64,000 nt of DNA, from positions 1 to 64,000 of the forward strand of contig JAAEZA010000008.1 of assembly GCA_018223125.1 (NCBI GenBank), given 5' to 3'. Within the stretch, counting starts at the first letter, position 1, and the number at the start of each line of letters is the position of its first letter. Below, piece after piece: positions 12,806-18,805 of this stretch. Source of the DNA: Paracoccaceae bacterium. Its GTDB lineage: Bacteria; Pseudomonadota; Alphaproteobacteria; Rhodobacterales; Rhodobacteraceae. Position numbers and translations under genes: made by a program. The notes below the pieces were generated by a model, which was given only the letters and a program-made list of their open reading frames with translations, had not been told where the DNA came from and searched no databases.

Positions 12806-13408
12806 TCAGTTGCTGGTTTCGCTCTCTTCTTCAGTTTGGATTTTCACCGCTGCATCGGCCTCGGCTTGCGCTTCAACGCCGGTGCTCTGCGCCTCTTCCA
12901 TTGCATCGCTCGCCGCTTCCATTGCGGAATTTGCGGTTTCGCTCAGGCTTTCCAGTGCCAAACCAGCCATATCGGCTACGCCCTCTGCAGCCGCTGATGC
13001 AGTGTCCTGTACAGCCTCTACAGCCGCCGCAGCAGCCTCCGGAGCGGCGTCAGCAGCTTGCTCCGTCGTTTCCACGACATCTGCAACGGCATCCGAAGCG
13101 GCTTCGGTAACAGCGTCGATCGTTGCAGACGCTGTGTCCTGAATTTCCTGAACTGCATCCTGCGCAGTTTCTTCCAGAGTTTCCTCGGTTTGCGCTAAAT
13201 CGGCTTCGGTTTCAGCATCCACTTCAGCAGAGGCCTCTGCTTCCACTTCGGCAGTATCCGCCGCAGGCGTTTCAGGAACCGTCGTGACAGTCACATCGAC
13301 GGTTTCCGCTGGCTGGTTCTGGGACCAGATCAGAAATCCGCCCGCAGCCACAACGATTACACCACCAATGATTAATATGTTCTTCACGGTATTTATCCAT
13401 TTCTTCAT
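12806..13408 (-). CDS. Membrane-anchored Ala/Glu-rich low-complexity protein
   Basis: MKKWINTVKNILIIGGVIVVAAGGFLIW TM anchor then A/E/T/D-rich amphipathic repeats. Confidence 0.65.
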   Translation of the reverse strand: MKKWINTVKNILIIGGVIVVAAGGFLIWSQNQPAETVDVTVTTVPETPAADTAEVEAEASAEVDAETEADLAQTEETLEETAQDAVQEIQDTASATIDAVTEAASDAVADVVETTEQAADAAPEAAAAAVEAVQDTASAAAEGVADMAGLALESLSETANSAMEAASDAMEEAQSTGVEAQAEADAAVKIQTEEESETSN

Positions 13409-13509
13409 GATTGTTGAACCACCCCCGCATCTGCGTGGAATGAACTTCAACGGCAAGGGCTAAGTTATTGGTGGAAAGGCATATAGGCTGAAAAGCGCTG
13501 AAACCAAGA

Positions 13510-13581: not shown

Positions 13582-14853
13582 TTATTGAAGCGCCTCGAAA
13601 CGGCTCTGGGCCTCGTCGGCGGCAGACTGGCGCGCAGTTGTCTGTTCTGCGGCTTCTGCTGCTTCTTCCTGAGCATTGGCAGCCTCGGTCTGTGCGGCTT
13701 CTACAGCGGATATGGCCTCGGTTTCTGCTTGCATTGCTGCGTCCAGTTCTGCCTTGGCCTGATCCAAGCTGGCCTTGGCGTCCTTGACGGACTCGCGCGC
13801 GGTCTGAAGTGCAGCCTCTGCCTGTGCCTGTGCGTTGGAGGCATCACCGGCTGCCGCTTCGGCGTCGCTGACCAGCAGGGCTGCGGTCTCGTACTCGGAT
13901 TCCGCTTGTGCCAGTTCCGCGCGGCGCTGCTCTGCTGCAGCTTCCGCATCCTCGAGGGCGGCTTGTGCTTCGGCGATTGCAGCCTTGAAAGATGCCGCAG
14001 CTTCTGTCGCAGTCTCAAGACGTTCCCGGGCAGCATCTGCCTGGGTCTGATCGCTTTGAGCCTTGGTTTCAGCAGCGTCCAATGCTTCCTGCGTGGCCCG
14101 CGCAGCCTCGCGCGCCGTTTCAGCCGCCTTGCGGGTTTGCTCCAGAAGGGTTTCGTCTACAACCGGTTGGTTGCCTTCGCTGCCGGATGCGCCAGCCTGC
14201 CCTTCCAGATCAGCCAGTTTTGCTTCGGCAGCCTCGGCATTGGCTTCCGCCTGTTCGGCAACGTCACGCGCATTGCGCGCAGAACCGGCAGAGGCTTCAA
14301 CCGCGGAAGTCGCGTTGTTCAGTTCCCGCTCGGCTACGGCTTCTTGTGCGACTTCGTTCTGACCGTCAGATTCGGCCTGATCCAGTGCCTTTTGGGCGTC
14401 GAGGATATCATCCTGTGCCTTCGCGTAGGCGGCTTTGGCCCCCTCAAGCGTTGCTTTTGGTCCATCCAGGGACTTTTCCTGAACGGCGTCACGGGCAATT
14501 TCGGCCGCTTGCGCAGCCTTTTCCACCAAAGCTTCGGCCTCCGGAAGGGCTGCCTCGGCTGCCGCGACGGCTTCCTCCGCTGCTGCAACGGCATCCTGTG
14601 CCGCTTTGACTGCTGCTTCCTTGTCGGTCACGTTTTGCTGGGCCGTTTCCACCGCAGCACCCGCAGTTTCGGCCCGCGCCACGGCATCAGCCTGCGCCTG
14701 AGCAGCAGTCTGAACAGCCACTTGCGCTGTTTCGGCTTCATTTTTTGCGGCGTCAAATACAGCCTGACGATCCCGCGAGGTCTTGTCTACGAAGCCCCAC
14801 ACAGCGATCAGCACGATCAGCCCGAGCGCGATAAATCCAGCAATCTTTTTCAT
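13582..14853 (-). CDS. Membrane-anchored long Ala-rich coiled-coil protein
   Basis: MKKIAGFIALGLIVLIAVWGFVDK TM then about 400 aa of A/E/Q heptad-like sequence with almost no hydrophobic core besides Ala. Confidence 0.7.
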   Translation of the reverse strand: MKKIAGFIALGLIVLIAVWGFVDKTSRDRQAVFDAAKNEAETAQVAVQTAAQAQADAVARAETAGAAVETAQQNVTDKEAAVKAAQDAVAAAEEAVAAAEAALPEAEALVEKAAQAAEIARDAVQEKSLDGPKATLEGAKAAYAKAQDDILDAQKALDQAESDGQNEVAQEAVAERELNNATSAVEASAGSARNARDVAEQAEANAEAAEAKLADLEGQAGASGSEGNQPVVDETLLEQTRKAAETAREAARATQEALDAAETKAQSDQTQADAARERLETATEAAASFKAAIAEAQAALEDAEAAAEQRRAELAQAESEYETAALLVSDAEAAAGDASNAQAQAEAALQTARESVKDAKASLDQAKAELDAAMQAETEAISAVEAAQTEAANAQEEAAEAAEQTTARQSAADEAQSRFEALQ

Positions 14854-15067
14854 TTCCATCCCTTGGTCTTTTACAGGCCACCGCGTCGTCCCCAGTGGCA
14901 TTGGTGCGGTTTTCAGCTTGGGGATTTGAACACAGCTTGCAAGACCTAATTGGATTTTGCTGCACTGCCCCGTGTTTTCCCCGCCAAAGGGAAATGGGAG
15001 GTTGAACCTTTCGCAGTGCAGGGCTACATAATAAGCACATTTTAAAGCTACAAAGGACTAGAAACCG

Positions 15068-15654: not shown

Positions 15655-15682
15655 AAAGGCGCCTTCGGGCGCCTTTTATTTT
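15655..15682 (+). terminator. infC terminator
   Basis: aaaggcgccttcgggcgccttttatttt. Confidence 0.85.
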
Positions 15683-16566
15683 GCCTTTACGGCTTTGGCC
15701 TGCGCTTTCACACGGTCGAACTCCGCCCGTTTTGCCGCAATTTCTTCCGCACTCAGCAGGTCGGGGTTTGAATAATCCTTCTGCCAGTCCGGCGCACCGG
15801 ACCATTTGAATGGTGATTGTACTGTGGTGCGCGGTGCAGCAGTGTCTTCCAGCAAAGTGACCGCCAGACGCGCTGTTTCCAGTTGCGCCTTTGGATCGTC
15901 GGGTAAGCCCGCAGCGTTGCCCAAGGGGAAATTGCTGAACAACAACCGCGGAACGCCAACCCGTTCAACAATATCCCGTGCACATCCTATCACCACCGTA
16001 GAAACACCGGCGGTTTCCAGCGCATGTGCTGCTATAGACACGGACTGGTGACAAACCGGACAATTTGGCACCAGAACCACCCCGTCCAACGCATCGTCCT
16101 TTGCGAATGAGACCAATGCTGCCGCATCTTCCCGCGTGCGCGACTGGGACCGGTTGGTAGGTAGCCCGTAAAACCGCTCTGCAACAGACCCGATGACGCC
16201 GGTTTGCGCCAGCTTCTGCAAGGCCTGCAAAGGAAAATAACTTCGCTGGTCCGCAGCGGATGTATGCGCACGATCATAAGCGATATGAGAAATCCCCAAC
16301 ACGGGTTCGGGTTTTACCGGCGCTGCAAAAGGCTCGAAAAACTTCGCAGCGCCGTTATAGGCTGCGCCCACTCCCTGTTCACCCGCCCCCGCTTTAAACG
16401 GTGCTGCCGTGGTGACAATTCCGATCCGTGCCGCACCAAGGGGTTTGGTCAGCGGTGTCAAAGGCACCGTATGATGCACCGCCCATTCATAGGGCGCCCC
16501 GTAACCAAGCGCTTGATAATAGGCGCGAATGCGCGGGATATAGTCCAAGGGCCGGTCCGTTGTCAT
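15676..16566 (-). CDS. Glycine/betaine/sarcosine/D-proline reductase component B (GrdB/PrdB)-like protein, Cys in place of Sec
   Basis: GISHIAYDRAHTSAADQRSYFPLQALQKLAQTGVIGSVAERFYGL ... LVPNCPVCHQSVSIAAHALETAGVSTVVIG ... FPLGNAAG resembles the GrdB family; no in-frame TGA. Confidence 0.7.
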   Translation of the reverse strand: MTTDRPLDYIPRIRAYYQALGYGAPYEWAVHHTVPLTPLTKPLGAARIGIVTTAAPFKAGAGEQGVGAAYNGAAKFFEPFAAPVKPEPVLGISHIAYDRAHTSAADQRSYFPLQALQKLAQTGVIGSVAERFYGLPTNRSQSRTREDAAALVSFAKDDALDGVVLVPNCPVCHQSVSIAAHALETAGVSTVVIGCARDIVERVGVPRLLFSNFPLGNAAGLPDDPKAQLETARLAVTLLEDTAAPRTTVQSPFKWSGAPDWQKDYSNPDLLSAEEIAAKRAEFDRVKAQAKAVKAK

Positions 16567-16640
16567 GTCATCTCCCGTTCTGAATTTACCCGACGTTACG
16601 TGCCTTGCCCCTGCAATCCAACTCCCCTAACGTCAGCTTC

Positions 16641-16985
16641 ATGGAAACAGACAAAATTCACCGCTGGCACGATATGGGCGGCCAGCCCGCCGGAGAGATC
16701 AACCGCGAGGAGCATGATTTCGCGCTTTGGGAAAAGCGGGTGGATGCCTTGCAGGTTCTCACCTCGGGCAAGGGTTACTTTACCGTGGACGGATTGCGCC
16801 GCGTGCTGGAGGATATGGGCGAAGAAGCCTTTGAAACAATGTCCTATTACGAACGCTGGGTGCAATCGGTGAACCAGAACCTGCTGGAAGCGGGTGTTTA
16901 CACCATCGCCGAACTGGCCGAACGCATGGAACAGGTGCAGGCACGGGGCGAAACCTACGGTGAATGTGCCGGAGCGGGCGAGTGA
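16641..16985 (+). CDS. Nitrile hydratase beta N-terminal-half / thiocyanate hydrolase beta-like subunit
   Basis: HRWHDMGGQPAGEINREEHDFALWEKRVDALQVLTSGKGYFTVDGLRRVLEDMGEEAFETMSYYERWV. Confidence 0.8.
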   Translation: METDKIHRWHDMGGQPAGEINREEHDFALWEKRVDALQVLTSGKGYFTVDGLRRVLEDMGEEAFETMSYYERWVQSVNQNLLEAGVYTIAELAERMEQVQARGETYGECAGAGE

Positions 16986-17263
16986 TGGCACAGCCGCAAA
17001 AGGTTCGCGTGAAAAACTGGCATCCCCCCGGCCATGTCCGCGCACCGATGTACCTGCGCGGCAAAACCGGTGAGATCGAGCGGGAGCTCGGCCCCTTTGG
17101 CAACCCCGAGGAACTCGCCTACGGGCACAAGGCCAGCCGCCGCCGCCTGTTGCGGGTGCGCTTCACAATGGGCGAGCTTTGGGGGGCGGAAGCGGAAAAC
17201 CCTGCCGATATACTTGAAGCCGAAATTTACGAACACTGGCTGGAACCGATCAATGCCTCATGA
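16985..17263 (+). CDS. Nitrile hydratase beta C-terminal-half / thiocyanate hydrolase alpha-like subunit
   Basis: VRVKNWHPPGHVRAPMYLRGKTGEIERELGPFGNPEELAYG...YRVRFTMGELWG-type domain; TGATG overlap with upstream gene. Confidence 0.8.
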   Translation: MAQPQKVRVKNWHPPGHVRAPMYLRGKTGEIERELGPFGNPEELAYGHKASRRRLLRVRFTMGELWGAEAENPADILEAEIYEHWLEPINAS

Positions 17264-17906
17264 CCACCCCGACCATTCCCATGATGCCGACGGGCTCAGC
17301 CCTTCGGGACACCCCTATAGACCGGATCAGGATCACAAGCTAACCCGCTGGCAGGCCATGGAAATTGCCATGCGTGAACTGCTGGTGGAGAAGGGAATCG
17401 TCACCGCAGCAGAGATCACGGCGACGGTAGAACAGATGGACCGTCGCTCCCCTGCGGACGGGGCGAAGGTCGTGGCGCGGGCTTGGATAGATCCGGACTT
17501 CAAGGCGCGACTGCTGGAAAACGGAACAGAAGCGATCCGCGAAATGGGGATCGAACCCGGTGTGTTGAAACTGATCGCAGTCGAGAACACACCCGATGTT
17601 CACAATGTCGTCGTTTGCACCCTGTGTTCCTGTTATCCGCGCAATCTGCTCGGCCTGCCGCCGGACTGGTACAAACAACGGGCCTACCGGTCCCGCGTTG
17701 TAAAAACGCCGCGCAAGGTACTGGCCGAATTCGGGCTGGAACTGCCGGAAAAGGTACAGGTGCGCGTCCATGACAGCACCGCCGATATGCGCTATCTTGT
17801 GGTGCCTGGCCGCCCCGAAGGCACAGACGGGCTGGATGAAGCCGCGCTGGCCGGACTGGTCAGCCGCGATGCCATGATCGGTGTTGCCACCGCACGGCAC
17901 CCGTAA
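17253..17906 (+). CDS. Nitrile hydratase alpha / thiocyanate hydrolase gamma-like catalytic subunit (Co-type motif)
   Basis: Metal-binding motif VVCTLCSCYPRNLLGLPPDWYK (CTLCSC at 17616-17633). Confidence 0.88.
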   Translation: MPHDHPDHSHDADGLSPSGHPYRPDQDHKLTRWQAMEIAMRELLVEKGIVTAAEITATVEQMDRRSPADGAKVVARAWIDPDFKARLLENGTEAIREMGIEPGVLKLIAVENTPDVHNVVVCTLCSCYPRNLLGLPPDWYKQRAYRSRVVKTPRKVLAEFGLELPEKVQVRVHDSTADMRYLVVPGRPEGTDGLDEAALAGLVSRDAMIGVATARHP

Positions 17907-18805
17907 TGGCGATGTTCAACCGGTACTGGAGCGGGCTTGGCCCGCTGGCCAAGGGTGCGCTGATGTTCATCCTGACCGTTTTCCTGTTCTCCATCATGGA
18001 CAGCATCGCGAAATCCCTGGGGCAGCGCCACCACCCGCTAGAGGTCGTCTGGGCCCGTTACACATCGCAGACCGTTATCGCATTTGTCGTGCTCTCGCCC
18101 CATTTGCGGCGGTTGCTGCGCACGGATCACCTGATGCTGCAAGTCATACGCTCCGCCTTTCTGTTTGGCGCAACAATGTCTTTTTTCACGTCTCTGGCTT
18201 TTATGGAAATGGCCTCCGCCACAGCGATTTTTGAAATCTCGCCTCTTTTCCTGACAATAGCAGGGTATTTCGTGTTGAAGGAAAAGGTCGGACCGCGCCG
18301 CTGGATCGGGGTATTCGCAGGGCTGATCGGCGCAATGATTATCATCCGTCCCGGCTCGGATGTGTTCTCGCCGGTTGCCCTTCTGCCCGCACTGGCCGCC
18401 GCCTGCTTCAGCGGATACGCTATCTCCACCCGATTTCTGGGGCAGGAAGAAAGCCCCTGGACCAGTTTTCTTTACACTGCCCTGATCGGCTGCATTGCCA
18501 GTTGTTTCATCGTCCCCTTCGTGTGGTCAACTCCGTCATTGCCGGATGTTGCCCGCATGTCGATGATGGGGGTTGTGGGCGGCATCGGCCATTTGTTCCT
18601 GATCCGCGCCTTCACGATCACCGAGGCGTCCTACCTCGCGCCCTTTGGCTATCTCACGCTGCTGTTCAATGCGTTCTGGGCCTATATGTTCTTTGCAGAG
18701 GTACCGGACCGTGCCACGGTTATCGGCGGCGCAGTGATCGTCTTTGCCGGGGTCTACGTCTGGTATCGGGAAAGTTTCGGCTCGAAAAACACGAACCCGT
18801 CGTAG
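17906..18805 (+). CDS. EamA/DMT-family transporter
   Basis: 10-TM drug/metabolite transporter pattern; start overlaps the stop of the alpha-like subunit. Confidence 0.85.
   Translation: MAMFNRYWSGLGPLAKGALMFILTVFLFSIMDSIAKSLGQRHHPLEVVWARYTSQTVIAFVVLSPHLRRLLRTDHLMLQVIRSAFLFGATMSFFTSLAFMEMASATAIFEISPLFLTIAGYFVLKEKVGPRRWIGVFAGLIGAMIIIRPGSDVFSPVALLPALAAACFSGYAISTRFLGQEESPWTSFLYTALIGCIASCFIVPFVWSTPSLPDVARMSMMGVVGGIGHLFLIRAFTITEASYLAPFGYLTLLFNAFWAYMFFAEVPDRATVIGGAVIVFAGVYVWYRESFGSKNTNPS

Follow-up and report, generated by a model that had tools for sequence, protein, structure and literature searches.

A split-beta hydratase of the nitrile hydratase superfamily in Rhodobacteraceae, with alpha subunits on the thiocyanate hydrolase side of the tree

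Cobalt nitrile hydratases (NHases; PDB 1v29, 4ob1, and 3qxe) consist of an alpha subunit and a single fused beta subunit that are accompanied by an activator. In the thiocyanate hydrolase (SCNase) of Thiobacillus thioparus (scnBAC; PDB 2dd4), the beta subunit is encoded by two genes, such that SCNase beta and alpha are equivalent to the N- and C-terminal halves of NHase beta and SCNase gamma is equivalent to NHase alpha. The toyocamycin NHase, ToyJKL, also has three subunits. The selectivity of SCNase is reportedly controlled by two arginines (Yamanaka et al. 2013, J Biosci Bioeng). A split beta is also encoded in RefSeq loci composed of nthA plus two genes for SH3-like proteins from Planktothrix, Rhizobium, Agrobacterium, and Burkholderia plasmids (L193, L194, L198, and L199). 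The NHase activator binds alpha and is homologous to the beta subunit (PMC4709657). A survey from 2012 excluded one Roseobacter NHase beta subunit as it "appeared truncated" (PMC3323583), and relatives of the enzyme described here are currently annotated merely as nitrile hydratase with SH3-like proteins.

The locus analyzed here is located in a 64,000-nucleotide stretch of DNA from a Paracoccaceae bacterium (contig JAAEZA010000008.1), referred to as the window. Three genes on the plus strand encode a 114-residue N-terminal NHase beta half (bN, 16641-16985; PF21006, 66.5 bits; TIGR03888, 61 bits over profile positions 2-103), a 92-residue C-terminal beta half (bC, 16985-17263; PF02211, 67.4 bits; TIGR03888, 66 bits over profile positions 143-225), and a 217-residue metal-binding NHase alpha (17253-17906; PF02979, 272.6 bits) with the cobalt-type motif CTLCSC. 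These are followed on the same strand by a gene for an EamA/DMT-family transporter (17906-18805; PF00892, 95.5 bits), and a 296-residue PrdB/GrdB-like protein is encoded divergently on the minus strand (15676-16566), with CPVC at 16051-16062 (Cys169/Cys172). Re-inspection of the window with Pfam and TIGR profiles confirmed the coordinates of all five genes, the division into beta-N, beta-C, and alpha, the divergent CPVC gene, the transporter, the cobalt-type motif, and the correspondence of bN-bC-alpha to the order scnB-scnA-scnC, all of which had been proposed in the first-pass annotation of this DNA. No cobalt transporter or amidase gene was seen adjoining the operon in the window, and no Rfam elements were found at the locus. 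Two long Ala/Glu-rich, coiled-coil-like proteins are encoded near the locus (13582-14901 and 12806-13456, minus strand), the latter of which has a weak apolipoprotein match.

The order bN-bC-alpha was present in all 34 loci picked by short bN frames. Inclusion of genus members resulted in 45 split loci (44 distinct, as L034 and L115 are one record), and every one of these encodes bN and bC separately, in the same order and orientation, where a canonical NHase would have a single fused beta. Four loci have an extra gene between the two halves (L131:6519-7037, L134:7119-7619, L143:6858-7400, and L150:7566-8339). The product is a cupin in three of the genera; in the fourth, it is a GH19/peptidoglycan-binding protein. 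With 45 loci and additional genes between the halves in four of them, a sequencing frameshift was ruled out as the cause of the split. The possibility that bN is an NHase accessory protein was also rejected, as it matched TIGR03888 and had no match to TIGR03889 at E 0.1. The NHase beta-N domain was found in 157 of 298 Rhodobacteraceae genomes, and the split hydratase is present in at least 34 further genera of this family without an adjoining GrdB-like gene. Among the 45 split loci, neighboring genes encode DUF1223 in 33 and aconitase in 32, with an EamA gene 3' of alpha in 23 and a gene for an LpxL-like acyltransferase in 22. The best explanation is that the split hydratase locus is vertically inherited in many Rhodobacteraceae, and an ancestral presence of the split enzyme in the family is the best reading.

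The bN start was assigned to the ATG at 16641, which matches the starts of relatives in the alignment, and a promoter-like pair of hexamers ends 7 nt 5' of this codon. The pair (16605-16633, plus strand), a putative leaderless promoter for the hydratase genes, consists of TTGCCC (16605-16610) and TAACGT (16628-16633) separated by 17 nt. Of the 45 loci, 36 have a TAnnnT box 5–8 nt 5' of the bN start codon (mean of 1.5 in shuffled sequences), and 30 have the box together with a -35 element (mean of 0.14). Because the conserved promoter ends 5–8 nt before the bN start, a leaderless transcript is suggested; judging from these upstream sequences, the hydratase operon probably has its own promoter at bN across genera. 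An operator common to both divergent genes was ruled out, as the promoter is conserved only on the bN side.

To place the alpha subunit, a maximum likelihood tree of 101 sequences was midpoint rooted, and a group in it is a clade only if the root falls outside that group. A branch with 100/100 support divides the sequences into 55 and 46. The smaller set consists of fused-beta sequences and includes the solved NHases, and the larger contains all split-beta alphas, four alphas whose beta halves are encoded in separate reading frames, and the gamma subunits of two SCNases. SCNase forms a long branch (1.68) inside this group of 55, with an exact sister that is not firmly placed (94/75). The phylogeny suggested as a check in the first-pass annotation therefore put the window's alpha on the SCNase gamma side and not within the fused-beta NHase clade. 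Because alpha nonetheless exceeds the cut-off of the NHase alpha equivalog model (TIGR01323, 256.4 bits; cut-off, 249.85) and falls below that of the curated SCNase gamma model (TIGR03887, 212.3 bits; cut-off, 291.45), its side of the tree does not decide the substrate.

The metal motif of alpha is formed by Cys122, Cys125, Ser126, and Cys127. These four residues are invariant in all 45 loci, as are the two arginines that clamp the sulfenate. These arginines were placed by alignment to PDB chains as Arg53 of bN and Arg19 of bC (each 45/45); the clamp arginines of NHase beta are Arg52 and Arg157 in P. thermophila numbering. Both features expected of the cobalt-type NHase superfamily, C-T-x-C-S-C with a PF02979 match and two clamp arginines in beta, are thus present. 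In bN, Leu52, Arg53, Tyr69, Arg72, and Trp73 are conserved in 44–45 of 45 loci, and in bC, His17 is conserved along with Arg19 in all 45.

Two further arginines are found in the predicted pocket. Arg130 of alpha aligns with gamma-Arg136 of SCNase (the Arg of CSCYPR in 2dd4_C), which is Trp in the Arg-to-Trp form of SCNase (PDB 3vyg, chain 3vyg_C). Arg occupies this site in 54 of the 55 sequences on the SCNase side and in 0 of the 46 others, which have Trp, Phe, or His. Similarly, Arg72 of bN aligns with NHase His71 and is also Arg in SCNase, the surrounding stretch being YYERW here, YYGRW in SCNase, and YYEHW in NHase. The Trp-to-Arg change in alpha and the His-to-Arg change in bN are fixed in 44 of 45 loci; the sole exception (L135, 7388-8581), which is basal in the group, has Trp at 130 plus Gln at 72, so that both sites differ together. 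The site of beta-Arg90, the second of the SCNase selectivity arginines, aligns with Leu52 of bN (Leu in 44/45) and is occupied by Phe or other residues in NHases and by Lys in the split enzymes of Rhizobium, Agrobacterium, and Burkholderia.

An activator was sought by profile searches with TIGR03889 and PF21006. Within the window's own genus, TIGR03889 matched in 0 of 8 split-type genomes versus 7 of 7 fused-type genomes (Fisher p = 1.6e-4); the search for an accessory activator elsewhere in the genome that the first-pass annotation had recommended thus found none of the usual TIGR03889 type in split-type genomes. The sole PF21006 match above cut-off in the window's own genome is bN, and a single match was likewise found in 31 of 34 split genomes of other genera. 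Double matches in fused loci suggest that PF21006 detects activators as well. As no separate activator was found, free bN may serve in cobalt loading, a proposal that has a structural rationale but is not a result; the activator could also be a protein unlike TIGR03889 and PF21006.

Given the directly observed anatomy of the locus, its conservation, the position of alpha in the tree, the pocket residues, and the absence of the usual activator, we consider it reasonably likely that bN-bC-alpha is a three-polypeptide, cobalt-type enzyme of the NHase superfamily on the SCNase branch that acts as follows. The alpha subunit would bind non-corrin Co(III) via Cys122, Cys125, and Cys127, with two of these ligands presumably oxidized to sulfinate and sulfenate and held by Arg53 of bN and Arg19 of bC. 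Since one clamp arginine comes from each beta half, all three chains would be needed. Arg130, replacing the Trp of NHase, and bN Arg72, replacing the His, would create a positive pocket for a small polar or anionic substrate, the C–N triple bond of which would bind the metal and be attacked by the sulfenate or by water to yield an amide-level product. The free beta N-half, a homologue of the NHase activator, may load the cobalt, and the EamA protein would move the substrate or product. Genes for cobalt transporters (CbtAB or HoxN-type) beside related split-beta loci are in keeping with this reading.

If the enzyme were an ordinary NHase acting on neutral organic nitriles, the beta subunit would have been split by chance and the pocket arginines would be neutral changes. 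The score of alpha above the NHase equivalog cut-off and the intact catalytic set are consistent with this possibility, as is Leu52, which retains one NHase-like hydrophobic position. The fold family, metal motif, and clamp arginines are shared with cobalt NHases. However, the window differs from cobalt NHases in the two genes for beta, in the lack of a TIGR03889 activator, and in both pocket substitutions, which are nearly fixed and common to SCNase, and its alpha is deeply separated from those of all fused-beta NHases. We therefore regard an ordinary NHase as unlikely.

The same substitution data bear on whether the enzyme is a true thiocyanate hydrolase that, like that of T. thioparus, converts SCN- to COS and ammonia. 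The three-way split, the gene order, CTLCSC, the side of the tree, and the arginines at the gamma-136 and NHase beta-His71 sites all match SCNase. The window differs from it in the replacement of beta-Arg90 by Leu, in LGLPP for LGQSP after the motif, in the lack of a detected activator, and in the sequence of alpha, which is 44% identical to SCNase gamma and no nearer to it than to NHases. The TIGR03887 score of the window's alpha compares with 357 bits for SCNase gamma of Azospirillum ramasamyi, and no protein exceeded the cut-off of this model in 349 genomes of the phylum. A thiocyanate hydrolase is thus quite unlikely, and strict SCNase identity was ruled out by the TIGR03887 result and the loss of beta-Arg90; the likeness to thiocyanate hydrolase noted at first holds for the split, the gene order, the tree side, and gamma-Arg136 but not for these two features. 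In the literature searched, no paper was found linking the use of SCN- by roseobacters to these genes. The A. ramasamyi enzyme is encoded on a plasmid (L192:4039-5681) with beta and alpha fused (283 residues), followed by a HupE/UreJ-type transporter. The nthA-plus-SH3-like loci share the split beta, the motif Arg, and the tree side with the window, whereas those of Rhizobium, Agrobacterium, and Burkholderia differ from it in the order bC-alpha-bN, in the nearby cobalt transporter genes (CbtAB or HoxN-type), and in the Lys at the beta-Arg90 site. These three plasmid loci (L194, L198, and L199) are better SCNase-like candidates than the window.

In its anatomy and in the descent of its alpha, the split hydratase is therefore closer to SCNase than to NHase, yet it fails the tests that define SCNase, and it represents a real, widespread, and uncharacterized variant of the NHase superfamily. 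Within the three-polypeptide reading favored above, we tentatively suggest that Rhodobacteraceae possess a third functional class of this superfamily in addition to NHase and SCNase. This would be a cobalt hydrolase of three subunits that matures without an activator, has a positive pocket for a small anionic marine compound containing a C–N triple bond, and uses free bN as its cobalt-loading chaperone.

The divergently encoded protein had been described as GrdB/PrdB-type. It carries the UxxC/CxxC redox motif at the position expected of the family, as CPVC in the window and UPVC in relatives, but is only a distant profile match, below cut-off for both TIGR04483 (PrdB; 79.3 bits versus 300) and PF07355 (16.5 versus 22 bits). 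The pyruvoyl partner subunit of D-proline/glycine reductase (PF09338) had no match in the window's own genome, although control genomes gave no match either, and the predicted fold of the protein (pLDDT 89.8) had no match in the PDB at E <= 0.001. PrdB-type UxxC proteins are common in marine plankton, with 235 Sec and 110 Cys forms (PMC2398784), so that a protein of this type in an aerobic marine host is less surprising than initially supposed. The window's CPVC and the UPVC of its relatives resemble these marine selenoproteins and their Cys homologues. Scanning 85,488 species genomes yielded 550 confirmed GrdB-like relatives, the best 80 of which were used for comparison of loci. Among these best 80, the motif at the first Cys is CPVC in 75 and CPIC in 3, and L095 and L099 have an in-frame TGA. 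An in-frame TGA takes the precise place of the first CPVC Cys codon in L031:1501-2385 (G035), L095:8001-8882, and L099:8001-8882, and by this placement the three proteins are probably selenoproteins in aerobic-type Proteobacteria. A GrdB-like gene 57% identical to that of the window is present in a record titled "Mycobacterium sp. KBS0706" (L078), a name that may be wrong.

Among 41 relatives, the GrdB-like gene is paired with the hydratase in five own-genus genomes in addition to that of the window, with the pair divided between contig ends in G008, and two further species (G011 and G013) have the split hydratase and lack the GrdB-like gene. In the best 80 of 550 GrdB-like loci, the fetched flanks (<=8 kb) contained NHase genes in no group other than Amylibacter/Neptunicoccus, and no constant neighbor beyond lineage synteny was seen. 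The linked loci share an entire syntenic block (infC, GrdB, hydratase, EamA, DUF1223, PanE, and aconitase), indicating that the arrangement is inherited and does not constitute repeated independent evidence. In two loci from other genera (L126 and L142), infC directly adjoins bN and the GrdB-like gene is absent, for which reason this gene was most plausibly inserted. The best explanation is that the divergently oriented PrdB-like gene entered later and independently, between infC and bN; it is a lineage-specific and incidental neighbor outside the hydratase system. The single pathway of PrdB-like protein, hydratase, and EamA transporter envisioned in the first-pass annotation is highly improbable, as the head-to-head spacing of 74–93 bp kept in all linked Amylibacter/Neptunicoccus members is set against the neighborhood comparison, in which linkage was confined to this one clade and was seen neither in ~70 further GrdB-like loci nor in 34 further genera with the split hydratase, against the loci that lack GrdB beside infC, and against the presence of the GrdB-like gene in just 17 of the 298 Rhodobacteraceae genomes, compared to 157 for NHase beta-N.

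The split hydratase thus places a cobalt-type hydrolase on the conserved chromosome of many members of the Rhodobacteraceae, a major family of marine bacteria. The alpha tree and the two pocket residues together make its substrate class predictable, and if maturation of the enzyme needs no activator, it would also reveal the role of the activator in NHases.
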